Origin: a virus
Strand: one strand, 5' to 3'
Length of the DNA stretch: 64,000 nt
IMG/VR virus record: IMGVR_UViG_3300027747_002439
Coordinates: 1-64,000 of that record
Below, in pieces: positions 17,400-50,582 of this stretch (within the stretch, counting starts at the first letter, position 1; each line of letters starts with the position of its first letter). A program made the translations under genes and the position numbers. The notes below the pieces were generated by a model. The model worked only from the letters and a program-made list of their open reading frames with translations, was not told the DNA's origin and searched no databases.

Positions 17400-17744
17400 G
17401 TGAAAGACTCACGTATAGGTGAGCTTTTGTGGAAGGAATGGACGGGTGAAGGCTACGAGCCTCTTCACGACTATTCGGTTACCTTCTTCACAGAGGATCA
17501 TGTAGATCTAGAGAACGAGCTTATTCGTCGCGCATTGGCATCTGCCCTCCAGCGTGACGGTGTATCCGTGTCATTAGGCAACGGATTTAAGTATCTTGAT
17601 TCTTCATTGATTAACTATGGCTATGCGGGAGAAGTAGATGGCGACAACGAGTTAACAGCATGTGATGAAGATGGCGAAACACGCGAAGGCGACGGTGTAG
17701 ACAACCTAACTCCTGTTACATGGGTTGAGGTAGTCGCAGAATGA
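17400..17744 (+). CDS. Hypothetical acidic protein
   Basis: Encodes 114 residues from GTG 17400 with AGGGG just upstream. Overall acidic, with a beta-rich N-terminus (HDYSVTFFTEDHVDL) and an Asp/Glu-rich C-terminal half. It overlaps the WhiB-like gene by 4 bp. No domain is recognised. Confidence 0.6.
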   Translation: MKDSRIGELLWKEWTGEGYEPLHDYSVTFFTEDHVDLENELIRRALASALQRDGVSVSLGNGFKYLDSSLINYGYAGEVDGDNELTACDEDGETREGDGVDNLTPVTWVEVVAE

Positions 17745-18259
17745 GCGGATCGTTAGACTTAGGCTGGCAAAAAGATTCTGCATGTGGGCAACAGGTAAAC
17801 GACGAGTTTAAGGACTTCTTCTTTTCATCTGAGCCTGCAGAAAAATATCAAGCAAAGAATCTTTGCTTCTCATGTCCTGTAAGAAAAGAATGCTTAAAGT
17901 GGGCGTTAGAGCATAAGCAGATCTGGGGTATCTGGGGAGGAAAGGACGAAGGAGAAATTCGTCGCACACTTTCCGTATCATGGAACGGGCAGGAATCTCG
18001 ACGTCAACGTTTTCCGCAGTGTCCATTTTGTAATGCACGACCAAATAAACTTAAGACATTAGTTTTAGACGTTCCAGGCGGAGGGCGTTGGGCAACAATG
18101 CGTCTTGTTCAATGTGAGGCTTGTGATTTTACCTGGCGCTCACGAACAAGTGCAAATGCGGTTGATGCATATCATGTTCAACGCGAGGAAAAATTAGCAA
18201 AGAGCGAGCGCGACAAGGAAAAGAAAAAGAAGCCTAAGAAGGGAAAACCTCTACTGTAG
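17741..18259 (+). CDS. WhiB-family protein fused to a zinc ribbon
   Basis: Encodes 172 residues. The N-terminal 75 residues form a WhiB domain: SACGQQ, then CFSCPVRKEC and the G(I/V)WGG turn (IWGIWGGKDE). The four Cys should hold a [4Fe-4S] cluster. A second module has CPFC near 92 and CEACDFTW near 125, resembling a TFIIS/IS-type zinc ribbon, followed by a Lys-rich tail. WhiB proteins bind the principal sigma factor and alter transcription. The zinc-ribbon extension is atypical. The gene converges with the next leftward gene and overlaps it by 9 bp. Confidence 0.85.
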   Translation: MSGSLDLGWQKDSACGQQVNDEFKDFFFSSEPAEKYQAKNLCFSCPVRKECLKWALEHKQIWGIWGGKDEGEIRRTLSVSWNGQESRRQRFPQCPFCNARPNKLKTLVLDVPGGGRWATMRLVQCEACDFTWRSRTSANAVDAYHVQREEKLAKSERDKEKKKKPKKGKPLL

Positions 18260-19114
18260 CCAGCGATCCTTATACGCCGCAGCTCTATCTTCCTTATCCT
18301 TTAGATACTCGTACCACCAACGCGATGCGCGTGCATTTTCTGATAGCGTCAGGATACCATAGATAGTTCTGTTATCTAAGTATTGTGTAATTTTCTTATC
18401 GCGCGCGGAGTTAGAAAAGACCATGTACTCCCAGCGGTCAGAATCCTCTAGGTATGAAAGCTCTGAAAGATACTCACGCTTAATGAGGTATGTGCAGTGA
18501 ACACACATGCACTCGACTATTCCTTTAACTCTTTGATCCAGTATGTGGTAGTAGCTATCGTTTGCCACGATTGAACCGTAGTCATCTACGATGTGATGGT
18601 AGTTAGCGTAATACTGTCCAAGGTGTCCTTCGCGCTCCTTGGCGGTTTCCTCGTCATCTACGTTATCACCAAACGCAACAGCATAGCGAATAAACGGAGC
18701 AACGATTGGCAGGTTAAGTTTAATAAGCTCGTTCAACGTCTCTGGGAAAATAAAGTTATCGACGTCAACTACAAAGTAGTATTCGCAGTTGGTTTCTAGA
18801 CACTCGTTAAAACTTTGCTGGCGAATCTTTGCAAGTACCCTAAAACGTTCGCCATTCCACTCGTGTTGCTTAAAGCGCTCGACAGCCTGCTCGACGTTTT
18901 CAGTCTCGTACTTGTAACCCTTATATAGATGCCCGTTCTTTTCAACCCAGTTATTTAAGATTTGAAGGGTATTATCGGTGTTGTTATTTGTGCGGATATA
19001 TAAAAATAATTTTTCCTTAGGGTAATCCCACGCCTCAAGCGACTCAAGAAATAGAGGTAGTACCGCTTCCTTTTGCTTTACAAGAAGTGCAACAAATACA
19101 TCAGGCTGTTCCAT
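18251..19114 (-). CDS. Putative glycosyltransferase (GT-A type)
   Basis: Encodes 287 residues. It starts VFVALLVKQKEAVLPLFLES with a later FVVDVDNFIFPETL, where DVD fits the metal-binding DxD of GT-A glycosyltransferases. The layout resembles the ANP1/procollagen-galactosyltransferase-like group (GT25/GT62 neighbourhood), including TNNNTDNT after strand 2. It overlaps the upstream glycosyltransferase gene by 14 bp and is the last gene of the leftward glycan island. Confidence 0.75.
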   Translation of the reverse strand: MEQPDVFVALLVKQKEAVLPLFLESLEAWDYPKEKLFLYIRTNNNTDNTLQILNNWVEKNGHLYKGYKYETENVEQAVERFKQHEWNGERFRVLAKIRQQSFNECLETNCEYYFVVDVDNFIFPETLNELIKLNLPIVAPFIRYAVAFGDNVDDEETAKEREGHLGQYYANYHHIVDDYGSIVANDSYYHILDQRVKGIVECMCVHCTYLIKREYLSELSYLEDSDRWEYMVFSNSARDKKITQYLDNRTIYGILTLSENARASRWWYEYLKDKEDRAAAYKDRWLQ

Positions 19115-20165
19115 TTAGTTGTGCCTCAATTCCTGCTCGATAAAATCTTAGGTTTGTCTTTAAACGTTCGTCGTCAGGGTTACCGGCAAGCGCTAACTCT
19201 CCATATTGTACAGCCTTATCTCTGTCACCTAAATAATGTGCAGATAGTCCGCGCATGTCGTCAAGTTGCCAACGCCATAGCGCCTCGGATGAAAGATAGT
19301 GATCTGTCTTAGCGCATGCGGCGACAAGCTTACATGTTTCCCAGACTCCGCCCCAGTCGCCGGAGTCGTAGTAGCAGCGAACTTTTTCGTAGTAATTTTC
19401 TCCACAAGGATCAATTTCAATTGCCTTGTCTGCCCAGGCGTGCGCTTCTTCCTTCTTGCCGATGTTGCGCAAAGCCTCCGACGCCCAACGACAGACTGCC
19501 GCGCGTTCGATATACCAGTCTTTACTAAACTCAGTTACCTTTTCAGCCGCGCTAATAACAAGTTCCCATTGTCTATAGAAGTAATACTCACGGCATAGGT
19601 AAACCCATATGCGGTGATCCTCGCCAAACTCTTTTGACGCGGCGACAAGCATAGGCAAGTATTGGCCGCGAGATTTTGTATCGTCAGGCTTGTGATACAT
19701 CTTAACTCCGTGAATTTGGCAGCTGATAGCTTCCGTATCAAGCGAAGGAACAAAAACCTCGTGAATTGGATATTTCCAATACATCTTGTGTCGTGAGTGA
19801 AGGCGGCAACCCCACCAAACGTGTCCGGTGTCAAACTCACACCAACCTTTTGTAGCTCCGTCTACCCACTGCTTCTTAACTTCCTCAAAGAAGTTCTCAT
19901 CTACGAGCTCGTCCATGTCTAAGCTCAAACAGACATCTATGTCGTTAGGCAGCAGACTTTGTGCGGTGTTACGGGCGACATCAAAGCGCCAAGGCTTGAC
20001 GCTAATCTCATAGACAGTCACGCCGTGCTCGCGTAGGATCTCAACGGTGCGGTCTGTGGATCCAGTGTCGCATACAAGGCGGAAGTCCGCACCCTTTGTA
20101 GTTTCAGCCCAGCGGGCAGCGTGTTTTTCTTCATTCAACGAGATGGCGTATGCGGCAACTTTCAT
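19101..20165 (-). CDS. GT2 glycosyltransferase with C-terminal TPR-like repeats
   Basis: Encodes 354 residues. The N-terminus (AYAISLNEEKHAARW, then DTGSTDRTVEILRE) and SLDMDELVDE (DxD) are GT2 features. From about residue 200 helical pairs such as RWASEALRNIGKKEEAHAWA and SAHYLGDRDKAVQYGELAL look like TPR units that could bind a protein acceptor. TPR-linked glycosyltransferases often modify proteins (as in O-GlcNAc transferases), which fits a role on nearby fibres, though this is inference. Confidence 0.82.
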   Translation of the reverse strand: MKVAAYAISLNEEKHAARWAETTKGADFRLVCDTGSTDRTVEILREHGVTVYEISVKPWRFDVARNTAQSLLPNDIDVCLSLDMDELVDENFFEEVKKQWVDGATKGWCEFDTGHVWWGCRLHSRHKMYWKYPIHEVFVPSLDTEAISCQIHGVKMYHKPDDTKSRGQYLPMLVAASKEFGEDHRIWVYLCREYYFYRQWELVISAAEKVTEFSKDWYIERAAVCRWASEALRNIGKKEEAHAWADKAIEIDPCGENYYEKVRCYYDSGDWGGVWETCKLVAACAKTDHYLSSEALWRWQLDDMRGLSAHYLGDRDKAVQYGELALAGNPDDERLKTNLRFYRAGIEAQLNGTA

Positions 20166-20798: not shown

Positions 20799-21458
20799 CT
20801 AAAATGACTCTGTTTTCCATGCTTTATAAGCCGGTCCAAATATACTTCCATTTCCCGCACGATAATGTTGTATGGACTCTTTATGAATAATGTAAGAGTT
20901 CGCACCTAAAAACTCTTGTACGCCCTCTTTAGTTTTTTCTAACGTTTTTAATATTGAATTTGTAAAAATTATGTACCCAACCTCATTTATTTCGTAATCA
21001 ACTACGCTTTTATACGTTATATTTTCATAGTACTTGTTTTTAATGCTAATTAAAAGCTCTTTTAAAAAAATACTAGATGATTCTGATGCAAAAATAGACT
21101 GTGTATATCCCCATATATTAGGTTCGCTAGAAACAACAAATTTTGAATCTGTTTTTAACCAACTTTCTATTGGTTTTTTACAAATCATATCAAGATCAGT
21201 ATATAAACCCCCATTTATATAAAGGCACATATACCTCCATAGATCTGACCTTAATACGTCTAATTTATAGGAGGTGTATATATTTTTCCACTCTTCACCA
21301 AAATGCTCTTCTACAAATATGGCTCTTTCTTTTCCAGAAACATATTTAAATTCCCAATCTGGATTTAAAGATTTCCAAGATTCAACACACTCTTTAGCCT
21401 TATCTGGAAGCTCGTCATATTCAGACTCATATGTTTGCCAAATTATTTTATTTATCAT
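20799..21458 (-). CDS. Glycosyltransferase with DxD (OCH1/capsular sugar type)
   Basis: Encodes 219 residues. NKIIWQTYESEYDELPD at the start and RSDLWRYMCLYINGGLYTDL with DLD near residue 95 are the signature of the Gly_transf_sug (OCH1-like) family. These enzymes transfer a hexose from a nucleotide sugar. The gene is AT-rich relative to the replication genes, as are its neighbours to 25.6 kb. It lies 2 bp downstream of the radical SAM gene. Confidence 0.88.
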   Translation of the reverse strand: MINKIIWQTYESEYDELPDKAKECVESWKSLNPDWEFKYVSGKERAIFVEEHFGEEWKNIYTSYKLDVLRSDLWRYMCLYINGGLYTDLDMICKKPIESWLKTDSKFVVSSEPNIWGYTQSIFASESSSIFLKELLISIKNKYYENITYKSVVDYEINEVGYIIFTNSILKTLEKTKEGVQEFLGANSYIIHKESIQHYRAGNGSIFGPAYKAWKTESF

Positions 21459-21460
21459 TT

Positions 21461-22447
21461 TTAAATACTTGAACTTAATGGCGGTGTTACGCCTTCATCC
21501 CACACAGCCCTAAAGCACTCTTTGCATACACCCTCATATGCTTTTTGAATTGCATTTTTTCTTTCTTGACTATTCCAAATATCTTTAATTGTTCTATTAT
21601 TTATGTTTTCATACACTGTTTCATAATTAAAATCTGCACAACACAAATAAACGTTTCCTGTAGCAGAAATAAATAATTCTTCTTCTGTGTAGTTAAATCC
21701 ACACCCAATAACTTTTCCATGCTGTTGGGTTTTAATTGCTGCTTGGTTTGAGATGACTTTTAAGCTAGAGAGAATGTTTGTTCTATCAGATAAATTGTTT
21801 CTTAAAAAAACCATAATGTTTGGAAACATTGATTGCATTGTATTCACTATTTTTTTATGCTCTTCATCGCTATAAAATGGAGCATTTTCCAAAACTTCCA
21901 TCCATCCACCATTTTCAAACTTAGCTTCTGGACTAATTCCATTAACTAATATCATTAATTTTTTTCCGCTAAAAGTTTGATACAAGGTGTCATTTGCGTA
22001 TTGCAAATTGGCAATTAACTTATCAAAAATTTTTGGATTAAATCCCGTAAACCTTGACCACTGTTCTCGTTCTATAGAAGGAACATTTAAAATAATATCT
22101 GTTACAACATCTCGATAATCATTTATCAAATCTGATTTGTTCGGCGTCAAATTAACACCGTTTGAAAATAAATACATTTTAATGTTGTATTTACGATGAA
22201 GGGCAAGCATCTCTTCAAAATGAGGGTATAAAAGAGTTTCATTATAATGAATTGGGTTATTATATATTTCAATATTGTCGGCAACAAAATCTCCGCGACC
22301 TTCATCAATTTGCTTAAGGATACTTTCCATAGTTTCTATGGTCATAGTTCCCCGATTTTCTTTTGGATTGCCCAAATATGCTACTGGGCAAAACCAACAT
22401 TTTGCGTTGCATAATCCATTTGGGTCTATGTTTATGTGCCTAATCAT
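21461..22447 (-). CDS. Radical SAM enzyme with SPASM-like C-terminus
   Basis: Encodes 328 residues. The CxxxCxxC motif is at residues 13-20 (CNAKCWFC) and binds the [4Fe-4S] cluster that cleaves S-adenosylmethionine. The C-terminal part has CGFN, then NVYLCCADF and VCKECF, consistent with auxiliary-cluster (SPASM) cysteines. The substrate is unknown. The position between an epimerase and a glycosyltransferase points to sugar or glycan chemistry (for example epimerisation or dehydration), but peptide modification is also possible. Confidence 0.9.
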   Translation of the reverse strand: MIRHINIDPNGLCNAKCWFCPVAYLGNPKENRGTMTIETMESILKQIDEGRGDFVADNIEIYNNPIHYNETLLYPHFEEMLALHRKYNIKMYLFSNGVNLTPNKSDLINDYRDVVTDIILNVPSIEREQWSRFTGFNPKIFDKLIANLQYANDTLYQTFSGKKLMILVNGISPEAKFENGGWMEVLENAPFYSDEEHKKIVNTMQSMFPNIMVFLRNNLSDRTNILSSLKVISNQAAIKTQQHGKVIGCGFNYTEEELFISATGNVYLCCADFNYETVYENINNRTIKDIWNSQERKNAIQKAYEGVCKECFRAVWDEGVTPPLSSSI

Positions 22448-23336
22448 TATTAGAAATCCATTCTTTAAGACCCACTTGTGGAGACCAGTTTAATACAGAT
22501 TTTGCTTTTTCTATGTTGGAAAGAGTCTCTTTTGCCTCCGTTGGACGCGGTTTAGTGTAAATAACGTTGTGATTAAACATGCTAGCAACTTCATTAATTG
22601 AGTAGTTTACTCCACTACCAATGTTAAATACTTGTCCCAAAAATGTGGGGTCTACATCTTTTGTTGCAGCTAAAATATTGGCGTTAACTACATCTTTAAC
22701 ATACGTAAAGTCACGGCGTTGTTCACCATCCCCTACAATAGTAAGCGGCATCTTAATTTCTTTTTGTCTTTTAAACGTACCAACAACGGGCGCATAAATA
22801 CCCTTTACTGGTTGGCGTTCTCCATAGACATTAAAATAACGTAAAGAAATAGTTTCTAAACCGTGGTGATTTGTATAAAAGCGGCATAGATCCTCACCGT
22901 TTACTTTAGAAATAGAATAGGGGTTTAAACAATCGTTAGGTTGAGTCTCCACATTGGGCACTAGGTTTTTTCCATAAGCGGAAGAAGTAGACGAATAAAC
23001 AACCCTTTTTACGCCCGCTTCTTTTGCACATTCTAAAACAGTTGCTGTTCCCAAAGAGTTTACACGTATAGTTTCAAGAGGTTCATTTATCGTTCTTTGA
23101 ATACGAGCTTGGGCAGCAAAATGAAACACGTAATCTGCCTTAAAATAAAGTCCTTTGGTTTGATCGTAATCGCATATGTCTAATACGTGGTTTTCAGCCT
23201 TTGAGTTCCAATAAAACTTTTCATTAGAAACAGCCGATTCATTGTCTATGACCACTACTTCGTGACCCTGACTTATAAGCGCATCTACTAAATTAGAGCC
23301 TATAAATCCAGCTCCGCCTGTAACCAGTGCTCTCAT
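22440..23336 (-). CDS. NAD-dependent sugar epimerase/dehydratase (GalE-like SDR)
   Basis: Encodes 298 residues of the extended short-chain dehydrogenase family. NAD-binding VTGGAGFIGSN at 5-15, YSSTSSAYG near 114-122 (catalytic Ser/Thr), and Y140-x3-K144 in NPYSISK. It probably interconverts UDP-hexoses, supplying a nucleotide sugar to the glycosyltransferases alongside. It overlaps the radical SAM gene by 8 bp. Confidence 0.93.
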   Translation of the reverse strand: MRALVTGGAGFIGSNLVDALISQGHEVVVIDNESAVSNEKFYWNSKAENHVLDICDYDQTKGLYFKADYVFHFAAQARIQRTINEPLETIRVNSLGTATVLECAKEAGVKRVVYSSTSSAYGKNLVPNVETQPNDCLNPYSISKVNGEDLCRFYTNHHGLETISLRYFNVYGERQPVKGIYAPVVGTFKRQKEIKMPLTIVGDGEQRRDFTYVKDVVNANILAATKDVDPTFLGQVFNIGSGVNYSINEVASMFNHNVIYTKPRPTEAKETLSNIEKAKSVLNWSPQVGLKEWISNND

Positions 23337-23343
23337 ATTGCTC

Positions 23344-24183
23344 CTAATAATATTTTTCTATATTAATATTTTTTTTATTTAATTTTACAAGGATATTAGA
23401 ATACGCTTTATCAAACTCTTCCCACGAATTAAGTTTTTTCCATTCACCAATTGACATGCTATTTTTATTAATGTTTTTAGCAAAATATTTTTTTAATCTT
23501 TCTTCATTATTTATATTTAAAAACTTTAATATTTTACCCTGTTCAAAAATTGATTGTTTTTCAACAAAATCTTCTAATCGTACGTTTATGTATTGCTCTT
23601 TATTTATCTGGTTTAATGACTCAAAAGACTGTGTAATCCTATCGTACCACCAATCAAGGCAGTCAAATTCATTTTTAGACCCCTCTACAGAAAAGTAGTC
23701 TCTCATTTTATAGATAGAATAGGCAGAGTCTCTGCCATCTCTAAACATATGAATAAACTTAGAATCTGGCATTATTTGAGTTATTCTGTGAGAATACCTT
23801 ATATTTGATGGGGTTGAGTCACCTATATATAAAGATCCTTGCTTAAACCCCTTTTGTTTTATAATAAGATTAAAATAAAAATTTTTAATTGTTTCTTCAG
23901 TTATATTTGCATTTATTTTTTTTAAGTCGTCAAAGAGTTCTTCAATATCTATAAAATTTTGTAACCCTATAGTTTTATTAGTTCCATACTTCCATGTTTT
24001 TTCAAAGTATGTGTTAAAGGTAGAAATATTTTTTGTTTCAAATAAATCTAAAAGGCCGTGTTTTTCTGTTAGAACTCTTATTTCTATTGGGTTACTTGCA
24101 TAAATTTTTGAATGGCTTCCTAAATACTCTAAGCAAACAGTTGTTCCACTTCTTCCTGTTCCACCAACAAAAAGTGGGATCAT
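23344..24183 (-). CDS. Sulfotransferase 1
   Basis: Encodes 279 residues. The 5'-phosphosulfate loop is FVGGTGRSGTTVCLEYL near residues 5-21 and the 3'-phosphate-binding motif is FIHMFRDGRDSAYSIYK near 138. Both are typical of PAPS-dependent sulfotransferases. It would move sulfate from PAPS to a hydroxyl or amine, probably on a glycan. It is very AT-rich. It overlaps the GT2 gene upstream by 4 bp. Confidence 0.88.
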   Translation of the reverse strand: MIPLFVGGTGRSGTTVCLEYLGSHSKIYASNPIEIRVLTEKHGLLDLFETKNISTFNTYFEKTWKYGTNKTIGLQNFIDIEELFDDLKKINANITEETIKNFYFNLIIKQKGFKQGSLYIGDSTPSNIRYSHRITQIMPDSKFIHMFRDGRDSAYSIYKMRDYFSVEGSKNEFDCLDWWYDRITQSFESLNQINKEQYINVRLEDFVEKQSIFEQGKILKFLNINNEERLKKYFAKNINKNSMSIGEWKKLNSWEEFDKAYSNILVKLNKKNINIEKYY

Positions 24184-24899
24184 TTTTCAAAAAAGCTTCT
24201 ATAAAAATTGTTTGTTTTTGACATGCCATTTATTTCATTAAAAAACTTTTCCCTGTACACTACTCTTAAATCGTCATCGTATCTTAAAATCATATTATCA
24301 TCAGTAACTTCTGCATAATATAAAACCTTATCTAACCTTCTCCAAGTAAATGGATTTTGTTTACAGTAGCGCACTACTCTTTGCCAGTAGTCTTCGTCAC
24401 CACTGTACTCTGTATTATCAAAATAACCAAATATTTCAAAAGCTTTTTTGCTAAAAAATCCGTGGGCTATATTTATCATTGGTGTAAAAGGTGGGTTGTA
24501 CCATTCTGGTGGAGGATTTCCTATTCTTATTTCTAAATCTTGAACGTTTAAAATATTTTCATCTTCATTAAAAACATTTAAAATTTCTTCAAACCTTGTT
24601 GGTTGTGAAAAGTCATCGGCATCGTGAGTTGTATAAATGTCGTAATCTTCTGTTTCCATAAAACGTATTCCAAGATTTTTACTATAAAAACACCCTTTAT
24701 TTTTTTCATTGCTTATAACACGAACTCTTGGATCGTATAAAAATTTATTTGCTTCTTCTAAAGAGTTATCTGAAGAGTTATCGTTGATTATAACTAAAGA
24801 AAAGTTTTCATGTGTTTGCTCAAGGATGCTATGAACAGCCCGTTTTAATAAACGAGCTTCGTTGTACACAGGTAATGAGACTAATATTTTTTTTGTCAT
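24180..24899 (-). CDS. GT2 glycosyltransferase
   Basis: Encodes 239 residues. Classic GT-A start ILVSLPVYNEARLLKRAVHS, then VIINDNSSDNS and a DADD metal site in TTHDADDFSQ near residue 96. A single-domain inverting-type enzyme. It overlaps both flanking sulfotransferase genes by 4 bp, implying coordinated synthesis of a sulfated sugar. Confidence 0.92.
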   Translation of the reverse strand: MTKKILVSLPVYNEARLLKRAVHSILEQTHENFSLVIINDNSSDNSLEEANKFLYDPRVRVISNEKNKGCFYSKNLGIRFMETEDYDIYTTHDADDFSQPTRFEEILNVFNEDENILNVQDLEIRIGNPPPEWYNPPFTPMINIAHGFFSKKAFEIFGYFDNTEYSGDEDYWQRVVRYCKQNPFTWRRLDKVLYYAEVTDDNMILRYDDDLRVVYREKFFNEINGMSKTNNFYRSFFEK

Positions 24900-25567
24900 A
24901 TGCTGTATCCTAAATTTTCAAACTCCCATTGCCAACTATCTTGAATCATGTTTAAGTGGCTTTGATTAAAAACATCTGTGTATACAATATTAGTTGGCCT
25001 AAACGCTTTTTCTCTTATTTTTAATTGTATTTTTGGTAAATTGTGTAAGGGCAAAACTGCGTTAATTTCGTCTTCTATTCCGTTTTCATAGTATAGTATT
25101 TTATTAACAGCAAGGCTTCCGTCATAGTGCAGGTATATGTTTTTTGAGCTTCTGTACCAAATCCACCCTAAATCGTCATTAAAGTATCTGTCGACCAAGT
25201 TTTGCCGTTCTTCTTTTTCTAGCGTGTTCCAAATAAAATTTTTTTGAATAAAGTATAATCTATGAAAAAAATCAGACAAAACTGCTTTATAGGGGTGTCG
25301 AACAAATACATAGGCATTGGCTTTACTTAAATCAAGTTTGTTTGCAATATCCACATAAGGGATGTGGTTATAAAAACCAATTTCATAATTGCGAGGTTTA
25401 TACCCAGCAATTTTAGGCTCATCTAATTTCCATGCTGGATTATCCGAAGTCTTTGGGGTTACTATTGCATTATCTGGAACAATCATAGAAAGAGGAACTT
25501 CAAGAGAAGTGCCACCTACTTTATGGTTTTTTAATAGAAGAAAATTATGGTCGGGGGAGTAAATCAC
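24896..25567 (-). CDS. Sulfotransferase 2
   Basis: Encodes 223 residues. KNHKVGGTSLEVPLSMI near 13-29 is the PAPS phosphosulfate loop, and AYVFVRHPYKAVLSDFFHRL near 86-105 is the 3'-phosphate motif. The layout is that of the membrane-associated carbohydrate sulfotransferase group rather than the aryl type. Two different sulfotransferases plus PAPS synthesis in one operon are notable. It overlaps DUF2061 by 4 bp. Confidence 0.85.
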   Translation of the reverse strand: MIYSPDHNFLLLKNHKVGGTSLEVPLSMIVPDNAIVTPKTSDNPAWKLDEPKIAGYKPRNYEIGFYNHIPYVDIANKLDLSKANAYVFVRHPYKAVLSDFFHRLYFIQKNFIWNTLEKEERQNLVDRYFNDDLGWIWYRSSKNIYLHYDGSLAVNKILYYENGIEDEINAVLPLHNLPKIQLKIREKAFRPTNIVYTDVFNQSHLNMIQDSWQWEFENLGYSI

Positions 25568-25893
25568 TCTCTACCCCATTTAATTTTGTTCCAAACCCTT
25601 TCGTGATAATAATAAAGAACAATTTTAACCACTAACTCAATACCTGAAGCAATAAGAGCTAGTTTAGCTTTATGCGTTAGTTCATAAATAATTATAAAAG
25701 AAATTAAATTGCCAAAAAATCTCCAACTAACTGCTTTAGCAAGTGATCGAGCATGGGATGCCCAAAAAATTGAGTTTACTTTTGTCGGCTGTGACCATAA
25801 TCTTTCTTCTGCTTTACCAATATTTTCCATTCCAACCCACCAATATTTAAATGCCGAGCTGCTTGCGTTTTTCAGTTGCTGAAATGGCTTCAA
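25564..25893 (-). CDS. DUF2061 small membrane protein
   Basis: Encodes 109 residues from a TTG at 25893 with a strong AGGAG six bases upstream. It overlaps the APS kinase gene by 47 bp. The C-terminal 60 residues (SLAKAVSWRFFGNLISFII, then YYYHERVWNKIKWG) are the DUF2061 signature with two membrane segments. The family is often encoded next to or fused with CysC adenylylsulfate kinase, which is exactly its neighbour here. Its function is unknown; sulfate uptake or PAPS channelling is possible. Confidence 0.88.
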   Translation of the reverse strand: MKPFQQLKNASSSAFKYWWVGMENIGKAEERLWSQPTKVNSIFWASHARSLAKAVSWRFFGNLISFIIIYELTHKAKLALIASGIELVVKIVLYYYHERVWNKIKWGRE

Positions 25894-26599
25894 TGTCTGC
25901 TCCTAACGATACTTGTTCAATTTTATAACCAACATCTCTACCATACACAATGTTAGTAATGTTAGGCATTTTTACTATCATTGCGCGTGTCATGTGAGGG
26001 TCTTGGGAAATGTAGTCTTTTACTTCATCAAAAGAAAGTGGGTCTTTAGGACTTGTTCCCTGAGTATTGCGAACACCAAGCATTACCTGCCCCGTGCGCT
26101 TTTTTGCCTCGTTATAAAGCGCGTGATGCCCTTCGTGCCAAGGTTGGTATCGACCTAGCATAAGAGTAGTTGGTTCTTTCCAATCGTATAACCCAGATTG
26201 GTTAATGATTGCATCTGTTTGACCCTCTGCGTCATAGCTCATCCAACGATAATCAAATTCAATTGGGTCTTCCCACAGTTTATTAGTGTCTTCAAAACGA
26301 CCTTCTTGAATTGTGTTCATCCATATAAGAATATCTGGTTTTCCAAACGATTGGCGAGTTGTTTGTGTTGGGCATACAAAATCAACTACAACATCTAACC
26401 CTTGACCAGAAAGCATACGAGCCATTTCACCCATACGCCGAGCATGCTCAATTCTATCTTCGACAGTAAAGCCTAAGTCTGAATTAACAGTAGAGCGAAC
26501 ATAATCTGCATTTAAATGAACAGCATTGATTCTATCTGATAGTTCAATGGCAAGGGTTGTCTTGCCACTGCCTGGTAATCCTATAATCTGAACAATCAT
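25847..26599 (-). CDS. APS kinase-like domain fused to a nucleotidyltransferase
   Basis: Encodes 250 residues. Residues 1-130 resemble adenylylsulfate kinase (CysC): GLPGSGKT at 7-14, LNADYVRSTVNSDLGF, then RMGEMARMLSGQGLDVVVDF. From about 145, MLGRYQPWHEGHHAL is the GRxQPxHxGH motif of cytidylyltransferase-fold enzymes, ending ISATEKRKQL. The first domain would make PAPS from APS. The second could be an adenylyltransferase making APS or a sugar/nicotinamide-type transferase. It is not the canonical ATP sulfurylase. The gene upstream of DUF2061 and two sulfotransferases supports sulfate activation. Confidence 0.85.
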   Translation of the reverse strand: MIVQIIGLPGSGKTTLAIELSDRINAVHLNADYVRSTVNSDLGFTVEDRIEHARRMGEMARMLSGQGLDVVVDFVCPTQTTRQSFGKPDILIWMNTIQEGRFEDTNKLWEDPIEFDYRWMSYDAEGQTDAIINQSGLYDWKEPTTLMLGRYQPWHEGHHALYNEAKKRTGQVMLGVRNTQGTSPKDPLSFDEVKDYISQDPHMTRAMIVKMPNITNIVYGRDVGYKIEQVSLGADIEAISATEKRKQLGI

Positions 26600-26600
26600 G

Positions 26601-27080
26601 TTATCCCCTTTTTTTATTTTTCCAGTCTATTACAAAATACTTATCAAAGTTTTCTTTTAAAAACTTTAAGTGTTCTTTAGTAGAAGCAATTTGAAAATCT
26701 TTGTCTTTAAGTTCTCTCATAAATGGACAATAAATTCTACCTTGTTTCATACATGTAATATGAAACGGGTAAAAATCTGAGGGAACATAATCACTGGTTG
26801 ATTTAAATACTGCTGTTTCAATCTTCCGCCTAATAGATGTTTCTTCTTCATCTATCTTAATACCGCAAAACGGACAAAGGTTTTCTTTAACTGCCCTTTC
26901 TTCGTTTTCAATGTTAAGGCGAATAACACTACCTTCTGGCAAACCTGGCATAGATTGAAATGGAACTGGTGATTTTTTATAAACAAACCTTTTGTTATTT
27001 CTAAACCAATCTTTTGATTGAGTAAAGAAAAAAGGTCTAGGCAAGCCTATAAAATTAATAACCTTTTCAGACCAAAGCAT
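26601..27080 (-). CDS. Hypothetical zinc-binding protein
   Basis: Encodes 159 residues. CPFCGIKI near 82 and a later PFHITCMKQGRIYCPFM (His/Cys set) suggest a treble-clef-type zinc site. A similar small family is seen in phages, with unknown role. It lies immediately upstream of the APS kinase fusion (1 bp gap) and shares a base with the upstream small gene. Confidence 0.65.
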   Translation of the reverse strand: MLWSEKVINFIGLPRPFFFTQSKDWFRNNKRFVYKKSPVPFQSMPGLPEGSVIRLNIENEERAVKENLCPFCGIKIDEEETSIRRKIETAVFKSTSDYVPSDFYPFHITCMKQGRIYCPFMRELKDKDFQIASTKEHLKFLKENFDKYFVIDWKNKKRG

Positions 27081-49922: not shown

Positions 49923-50582
49923 TTATTTTTGCTGGTCTAATACGTACTTAATACTAGAAGCAGACCATTTCCCGCCATAAGCTGTAGGAATACCTTCAGC
50001 TTGCAATGTGTTTGCAATAACACGCAAAGAAAGACCCTTTTCTCGTTCTGCTATAATACGACTACGTATCTCGTCAGAGATAAGTTGCTTAGGGCCTAGG
50101 TCTACACCCCATACTTTACCTGTTGAGCGTCTATATGAGTGAACGTCCTTCTGACGCTCGGAGATGATAGATCTTTCCATCTCTGCGAGCGCGGACATGA
50201 TTGTCACGACAAAGCGAGACTGGTATGAAGAAGTGTCCAGATTAAGATCAAGAAGAACAAGGCGCCAGTCGTACGTCTTAGAGTGGTCAATGATAGATAG
50301 GAAGTCTTGAGTTGAGCGAGATAGGCGATCTAGGCGGGTAACAAATAATGCATGGGCTTTGCCTAACTCAAGATCTAATAAGGCCTTACGGAGGACGGGA
50401 CGGCCTTTAATTGATTTGCCAGAGCGTCCTTCCTCGCGTATCAATTGTACATTTTTATACCCTGCAAGCTCCGCGGCCTGGCGCAACGTGCGCTCTTGAA
50501 CCTCTAGCGAGATGCCGTCTTGAACCTGCATAGACGTAGATACACGTGCGTAAAGTAGCGCTATCTTGTCGTCAAGTTCCAT
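49923..50582 (-). CDS. Small serine recombinase (resolvase/invertase family)
   Basis: Encodes 219 residues. The catalytic domain starts IALLYARVSTSMQVQDG, with the nucleophile Ser in ARVST, then FVTRLDRLSRS near residue 81 (the conserved Arg pair) and the long helix MSALAEMERSIISERQKD. The C-terminal part (IANTLQAEGIPTAYGGKWSA, SSIKYVL) is a DNA-binding domain. The length is that of resolvases or invertases, not large serine integrases. It is flanked by fibre genes and inverted repeats. Fibre-gene inversion or phage integration/resolution are both possible. Confidence 0.88.
   Translation of the reverse strand: MELDDKIALLYARVSTSMQVQDGISLEVQERTLRQAAELAGYKNVQLIREEGRSGKSIKGRPVLRKALLDLELGKAHALFVTRLDRLSRSTQDFLSIIDHSKTYDWRLVLLDLNLDTSSYQSRFVVTIMSALAEMERSIISERQKDVHSYRRSTGKVWGVDLGPKQLISDEIRSRIIAEREKGLSLRVIANTLQAEGIPTAYGGKWSASSIKYVLDQQK

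Follow-up and report, generated by a model that had tools for sequence, protein, structure and literature searches.

Genes for adenosine 5'-phosphosulfate (APS) kinase (cysC) and for sulfotransferases have both been known from phages, each separately (PMC10914622; PMC10580990). The cysC of freshwater phages has been placed in assimilatory sulfate reduction (PMC10914622), and the function of phage sulfotransferases has been called unclear (PMC10580990). In open-licence papers, nothing was found that describes the fused kinase-nucleotidyltransferase enzyme reported here (KN), its link to sulfotransferases, or its nucleotidyltransferase domain (NT) as an ATP sulfurylase. KN is encoded in the window, meaning the whole stretch of DNA analysed, 64,000 nucleotides long (positions 1 to 64,000 of the virus record IMGVR_UViG_3300027747_002439, which has 74,850 bases), where it heads an operon with a small membrane protein, two sulfotransferases and a glycosyltransferase. 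In the most far-reaching reading, to which a probability of roughly 0.6 is given, NT constitutes a new ATP sulfurylase family that evolved, separately from Sat and CysDN, out of the nicotinamide mononucleotide (NMN) adenylyltransferase fold. It would be the missing step beside AprBA in SAR11 bacteria, and hundreds of phages would carry it fused to a lid-less kinase as a compact synthase of 3'-phosphoadenosine 5'-phosphosulfate (PAPS), serving diverse sulfotransferases.

The five open reading frames (ORFs) of the cassette form one tightly packed minus-strand operon, running from 26599 down to 23344; ORF calls and Pfam matches confirmed the original prediction of five overlapping or adjacent genes, which are listed here together with the NT domain.

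25847..26599, minus strand: KN, a lid-less APS-kinase domain (residues 1 to about 135) followed by a NadM-like NT (about 138 to 250); Pfam, PHROG, AlphaFold (AF2) model and Foldseek.
25850..26185, minus strand: NT domain, an HxGH nucleotidyltransferase and proposed ATP sulfurylase; alignment, PDB profile, AF2, Foldseek and genomic context.
25564..25893, minus strand: small DUF2061 membrane protein, domain at residues 51-102; Pfam 1.8e-15 and hydropathy peaks.
24896..25567, minus strand: ST2, a divergent Sulfotransfer_2-type sulfotransferase; Pfam 0.005 (sub-threshold) and motif conservation.
24180..24899, minus strand: GT2 family glycosyltransferase; Pfam Glycos_transf_2 4.7e-26.
23344..24183, minus strand: ST3, a Sulfotransfer_3-type sulfotransferase; Pfam 3.4e-22, best PDB match 1.2e-7.

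The KN and DUF2061 genes overlap by 47 nt, and the DUF2061/ST2, ST2/GT2 and GT2/ST3 overlaps are of 4 nt each. An identical copy of the operon is present in L002 (IMGVR_UViG_3300027741_000002, a 129.5-kb record). A shared gene order in related phages, which had also been raised beforehand, was found as well: the order KN-DUF2061-ST2-GT2-(ST3)-GT is retained in L011, L015 and L026, at about 50% ST2 identity.

KN is 250 aa long and matches PHROG 10255 over its full length (2e-66), which indicates that the fusion is real and already known in phages. Its kinase half passes the Pfam APS_kinase cut-off (PF01583; E=7e-16, 59 bits vs 21.1), with a match confined to residues 2-84 and model positions 4-91 of 152, and it fails the TIGR00455 apsK equivalog (57.5 vs 138.7 bits). 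A CTP_transf_like match in KN lies just over its cut-off (E=2e-4). The AlphaFold model of KN has a pLDDT of 88.6 and a pTM of 0.83, and all 50 Foldseek matches listed for it are APS kinases or PAPS synthetases. The kinase half was aligned with E. coli CysC and with the kinase of L191, a bacterial sequence described below. Invariant between KN and E. coli CysC are the P-loop, D32, R35, F44, R49, R55, F74, P77, R82 and R101, while F102 is nearly always kept; the retained Arg and Phe belong to the residues by which CysC structures hold APS. Judged by this strong homology, the kinase half would act as an APS kinase, though not a standard one by the equivalog cut-off.

NT is a NadM-like HxGH domain of 112 residues, modelled by AF2 with a pLDDT of 90.4. 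The motifs GRxQPxHxGH (GRYQPWHEGH in KN), YGRDVGY and ISA(T/S)xxR, together with an invariant Arg (R177 of KN), are common to 36 diverse aligned sequences; GRGVGY replaces the YGRDVGY-type motif in many SAR11 copies and in that of L255, a phage described below. The profile match of NT to PDB sequences ends after the ATP-binding half (positions 6-75 of 115), and on curated models of NMN adenylyltransferase (NMNAT) the domain scores no more than about 34 bits, where the cut-offs range from 112 to 449. An ordinary NMNAT is disfavoured both by these cut-offs and by the genomic context. With a match limited to the ATP-binding half, scores below the NMNAT cut-offs and no likeness to Sat, the acceptor of NT is not readable from its sequence alone.

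NT is proposed as an ATP sulfurylase because of where it occurs: in fusions with full-length APS kinases, beside such a kinase in a large phage, and in the SAR11 aprMBA operon without Sat. In L191, from a single-cell genome of OCS116, NT is fused with a kinase scoring above the apsK cut-off (243 vs 138.7 bits), and the same fusion recurs in another assembly (L192), where it is cut by the contig end. In the 385-kb phage L255, three genes are immediate neighbours: one for a full-length APS kinase, one for NT on its own and one of the Sulfotransfer_3 type. Its NT belongs to the NT family of KN, with E=1e-29 across the full domain. SAR11 genomes often encode the kinase and NT as two ORFs. The kinase with NT (L238, L244), or NT without the kinase (L234, L239), precedes aprM-aprB-aprA in many of these genomes; the Apr assignments are our reading of the sequences and agree with the AprBA published for Pelagibacter ubique. 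Of the 147 Pelagibacteraceae genomes surveyed, NT and AprA occur together in 58, NT without AprA in 20, AprA without NT in 9 and neither in 60. Where both are present, they are no more than 6.5 kb apart in 31 of the 58, and neither Sat nor CysN is found above cut-off in 55 of them. P. ubique has been reported to possess AprBA and to be missing sat and cysDN (PMC5069961). The gap in SAR11 is thus the enzyme that turns AprBA-made APS into sulfate, and NT is the obvious candidate for it. Sat is also missing from 15 of the 16 bacterial genomes first found to carry KN or NT; CysN was above cut-off in 4 of the 15 searched, so that SAR11, OCS116 (G062) and one SAR116 genome (G058) make the strongest case for the argument from a missing Sat. 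Many SAR11 genomes, exemplified by L226 and L230, hold the kinase and NT outside the apr operon, between genes that we read from their sequence as Rieske-type oxygenase-like and enoyl-CoA-hydratase-like.

KN has proved to be common in environmental phages, with at least 593 matching stretches and hundreds of viral contigs carrying it, contrary to the original prediction that the cassette is unusual; in a DNA-level search of cultured phages the cassette was not found. KN itself is present in one cultured phage, Stenotrophomonas phage Suzuki. The sulfotransferases adjoining KN comprise Sulfotransfer_1, _2 and _3 as well as forms below the Pfam thresholds, and they occur in many unrelated phages and in several bacterial contigs. 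The bacterial cases are L187 (a 362-kb SAR116 contig), L188, L189 and L195, the last three of which may be prophages or phage fragments that were binned with bacterial genomes. In a first set of 50 KN records, a sulfotransferase was detected by Pfam in 12, and in 9 of these 12 contigs it was no more than 2 kb from KN, where 2.6 such contigs would be expected (p=1e-5); among contigs of at least 20 kb only, this held for 4 of 7 (p=7e-4). Several immediate upstream neighbours of KN in this set are weak Sulfotransfer_1/2/3 matches. When records were chosen by primase rather than by KN, both assessable sulfotransferases directly adjoined a KN. Another set was retrieved with the L191 protein as query; it was not dereplicated and includes the source of two of the queries. 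In this set, 39 of 78 loci had a sulfotransferase no more than 1.5 kb from KN, and six representatives passed Pfam cut-offs. Near KN in many phage contigs (L268, L321 and similar), the Sulfotransfer_3 domain resides in proteins of 475-568 aa with weak TPR matches. A second type of KN locus has also been observed, in which KN, usually with DUF2061, lies among small conserved genes with no sulfotransferase seen (L016, L045, L053, L054, L058, L066, L070, L072, L074 and similar). In such phages the sulfotransferases may be too divergent, a host enzyme may use the PAPS, or KN may be used otherwise.

Several observations weigh against the reading of the cassette as a sulfation module with NT as an ATP sulfurylase. 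The kinase half of KN is without the lid helix of CysC, a 16-residue segment being lost around the lid (RDPKGLYKKARAGE region of CysC), and it has His or Gln for a conserved Asn and Cys for the Ser of FISP. By PDB profile, the nearest structures to NT are those of NadM and of archaeal NMN adenylyltransferase, and by Foldseek its fold is that of NMNAT and PPAT. The Sat signature is missing from NT, and hhalign of NT against Sat gave a probability of 12%, over 23 columns around the HxxH motif only. The co-occurrence of NT and AprA (Fisher p=2e-14) comes from a test that ignores relatedness, and many of the SAR11 genomes counted are probably incomplete. As for the phages, many with KN, some larger than 100 kb, are without a detectable sulfotransferase, and the number of sulfotransferases per megabase does not differ significantly between KN and control contigs (p=0.19); the enrichment at contig level (12 of 50 KN contigs vs 3 of 50 control contigs, p=0.023) was therefore dropped as an argument. 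The sulfate-binding residues of Sat are the Gln and Arg of its QxRNPxH motif, and neither has a counterpart at the aligned places of NT. Pfam gave no match of NT to PF01747, the Sat catalytic domain, and Sat was not among the 50 Foldseek matches listed for the NT model; together with the hhalign result, these findings ruled NT out as a Sat homologue. The earlier hint of an ATP sulfurylase in the HxGH domain accordingly does not hold as regards the Sat family, and the function itself is suggested by context.

The relatedness of NT to NadM/NMNAT and PPAT in sequence and fold, and the missing Sat residues, would suit an alternative in which the kinase makes PAPS from the APS of a host ATP sulfurylase and NT does other work, such as NAD synthesis or adenylylation of another acceptor, with the sulfotransferase link still holding. 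It is considered possible and rather unlikely, given that NT and APS kinase are found together in three different arrangements (KN, the NT-kinase fusions of L191 and L192, and the separate genes of L255), that it stands in the SAR11 apr operon without a kinase and where Sat and CysN are missing, and that its PDB profile match takes in the ATP-binding half only, no NMNAT model reaching its cut-off. KN might instead act in a glycan or nucleotide pathway, phosphorylating and adenylylating (or cytidylylating) a nucleoside or a small alcohol, with the sulfotransferases using host PAPS. The architecture of a P-loop kinase with an HxGH transferase does resemble salvage enzymes such as NadR, and the KN domains weakly match NadR-type models; the kinase domain, however, is specifically APS-kinase-like in both sequence and fold, and NT is elsewhere paired with full-length APS kinases, which makes such a role improbable. 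Most improbable, and rejected here, is that KN serves as an auxiliary metabolic gene for assimilatory sulfate reduction, in which PAPS would pass to CysH and the resulting sulfide to cysteine, as proposed for freshwater phage cysC (PMC10914622). Phage cysC and cysH have been shown to be common and transcribed in lakes (PMC10914622), yet CysH (PF01507, PAPS_reduct) was matched in none of the 50 KN-bearing records, while the control matched in 14 of 14 genomes. KN is moreover flanked by sulfotransferases, not reductases, and its likely hosts are actinobacteria (by the WhiB gene described below), of which the cultured acI freshwater members lack assimilatory sulfate reduction altogether (PMC5301498). 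The absence of CysH and the linkage between KN and sulfotransferases favour the earlier proposal, in which the phage produces PAPS for sulfotransferases of its own.

Regarding the sulfotransferases themselves, ST3 is well above the Pfam Sulfotransfer_3 cut-off (80 vs 27 bits), its motifs GGTGRSGTT and FRDGRDS are both retained in an orthologue, and its best PDB match is a tyrosylprotein sulfotransferase (1.2e-7). ST2 does not reach the Sulfotransfer_2 cut-off (E=0.005; 17.4 vs 22 bits), and its orthologues score 20-21 bits or have no Pfam match, that of L011 reaching E=1.1e-6 in a single-genome scan and still falling just under the cut-off. A search of PDB sequences with the ST2 profile returned chance-level partial matches only. 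Both of its PAPS-binding motifs, KVGGTS and RHPY...S, are kept in ten orthologues, with K16, V17, S21, R90, P92, Y93 and S98 invariant across 11 sequences. The original prediction of two PAPS sulfotransferases is hence borne out for ST3 by Pfam, and for ST2 by its motifs and not by Pfam. ST2 and KN occur in the same stretch in L011, L012, L015, L026, L090, L094, L098 and L099, even where the gene order differs; ST2 pieces without KN are confined to L091, L092 and L093, which are short (4.0-8.9 kb). The membrane protein matches DUF2061 (PF09834) over the full domain (1-52 of 52; 57.5 vs 23.1 bits), and its start may lie further in than annotated. Of 84 KN loci, 68 contain a DUF2061-like ORF, which in most cases comes immediately downstream of the KN gene. 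In L256:3004-3812, a phage gene resembling a full-length APS kinase is directly followed by a 74-aa membrane protein, which looks DUF2061-like to the eye and has no Pfam match.

The minus-strand run goes on past 23344 with an epimerase, a radical S-adenosylmethionine (SAM)/SPASM protein and a DXD glycosyltransferase, to 20799, and is followed by a further pair of glycosyltransferase-like genes.

22440..23336, minus strand: NDP-sugar epimerase/dehydratase (SDR), 7 nt from ST3; Pfam Epimerase 4.6e-60.
21461..22447, minus strand: radical SAM/SPASM protein; Pfam SPASM 2.8e-11, Radical_SAM 3.6e-8.
20799..21458, minus strand: DXD glycosyltransferase (Gly_transf_sug); Pfam 3.7e-18, retained in L011, L015 and L026.
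19101-20165, minus strand: GT-TPR glycosyltransferase-like gene; PHROG 13126, 1.3e-69.
18251-19114, minus strand: Anp1-like glycosyltransferase-like gene.

The operon comes directly after several collagen-like tail-fibre genes, which are likewise on the minus strand. Its G+C content is 0.33, compared to 0.45 for the window, and the block is therefore probably a recent insertion. The pair at 18251-20165 has a higher G+C content than the operon and probably belongs to an older phage locus. In the related phage L252, these two genes are 96% and 90% identical; no homologue of ST2, GT2 or ST3 was found in the stretch of L252 examined, where a different KN has a different sulfotransferase alongside. 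The cassette thus seems to be exchanged at one fixed position behind the tail fibres. The gene at 26601-27080 (minus strand), 1 nt upstream of KN, is without a Pfam or PHROG match, and has homologues in two ORFs near KN in L011 and two in L012. A serine recombinase/resolvase gene at 49923-50582 (minus strand; Pfam 6e-33) has also been detected, and the phage may be temperate.

A WhiB transcription factor gene (17741-18259, plus strand; Pfam 5e-17) directly adjoins the glycosyltransferase block. As whiB serves to assign freshwater actinophages (PMC6802176), its presence points to an actinobacterial host and agrees with the description of the genome as actinophage-like in the original prediction. 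An acI host is no more than a guess; a phage infecting acI would need its own source of PAPS, considering the lack of assimilatory sulfate reduction in these bacteria.

Taken as a whole, the cassette is likely to constitute a self-contained sulfation module. Gene identities, catalytic motifs, operon structure and the linkage of KN to sulfotransferases are read from the sequence; from them we infer both enzyme activities of KN, the nature of NT as a Sat-unrelated ATP sulfurylase, and the sulfation target. Going by its context, NT would convert ATP and sulfate to APS, and the fused lid-less kinase, on strong homology, would convert APS and ATP to PAPS. ST3, by strong homology, and ST2, on weaker evidence, would then transfer the sulfuryl group of PAPS to an acceptor, presumably a glycan or protein that the adjoining glycosyltransferases, epimerase and radical SAM protein build or modify, and the DUF2061 protein may help at the membrane. 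Tyrosylprotein sulfotransferases being the nearest solved relatives of ST3, a protein acceptor is possible; a glycan is the acceptor favoured by the GT2, the epimerase and the DXD transferase alongside. The location of the operon directly after the tail-fibre genes makes a virion fibre or the surface of the infected host the likeliest target, and suggests the virion in particular, with a modified host surface as the alternative.

If this is true, a complete PAPS synthase is encoded by a widespread phage gene that carries no annotation beyond 'kinase', and the sulfation of virions or host surfaces is a common and so far unrecognised phage strategy. NT would be a further kind of ATP sulfurylase, explaining how sulfite oxidation is finished without Sat (reported missing, PMC5069961) in SAR11, which is among the most abundant bacteria of the ocean. 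The counts of phage 'cysC' cited for viral sulfur assimilation would also need to be reread.

When compared to the PAPS synthases PAPSS1/2, KN shares the order of kinase and then nucleotidyltransferase in one chain, the APS-kinase fold and core residues, and a second domain of the HxGH superfamily. It differs in that this second domain has about 112 aa and is NadM-like, its likeness to the Sat ATP sulfurylase of PAPSS1/2 being limited to HxxH, in that its kinase has no lid helix, and in its total of only 250 aa. From CysC (PF01583, TIGR00455) it keeps the P-loop, D, R, F, R and FxxP core and passes the Pfam cut-off, whereas the match ends at model position 91 of 152 (starting at 4), the score stays below the apsK equivalog cut-off and the lid helix is deleted. 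NT has the GRxQPxHxGH and ISxTxxR motifs and the overall fold of NadM; unlike in NadM, its acceptor-binding half is unmatched, its scores are far below the NCBIfam cut-offs, and its context is sulfur metabolism, not NAD. Like the phage cysC auxiliary metabolic genes (PMC10914622), KN is a phage-borne APS-kinase-like gene and, compared with them by description, it is distinguished by its linkage to sulfotransferases rather than to CysH.

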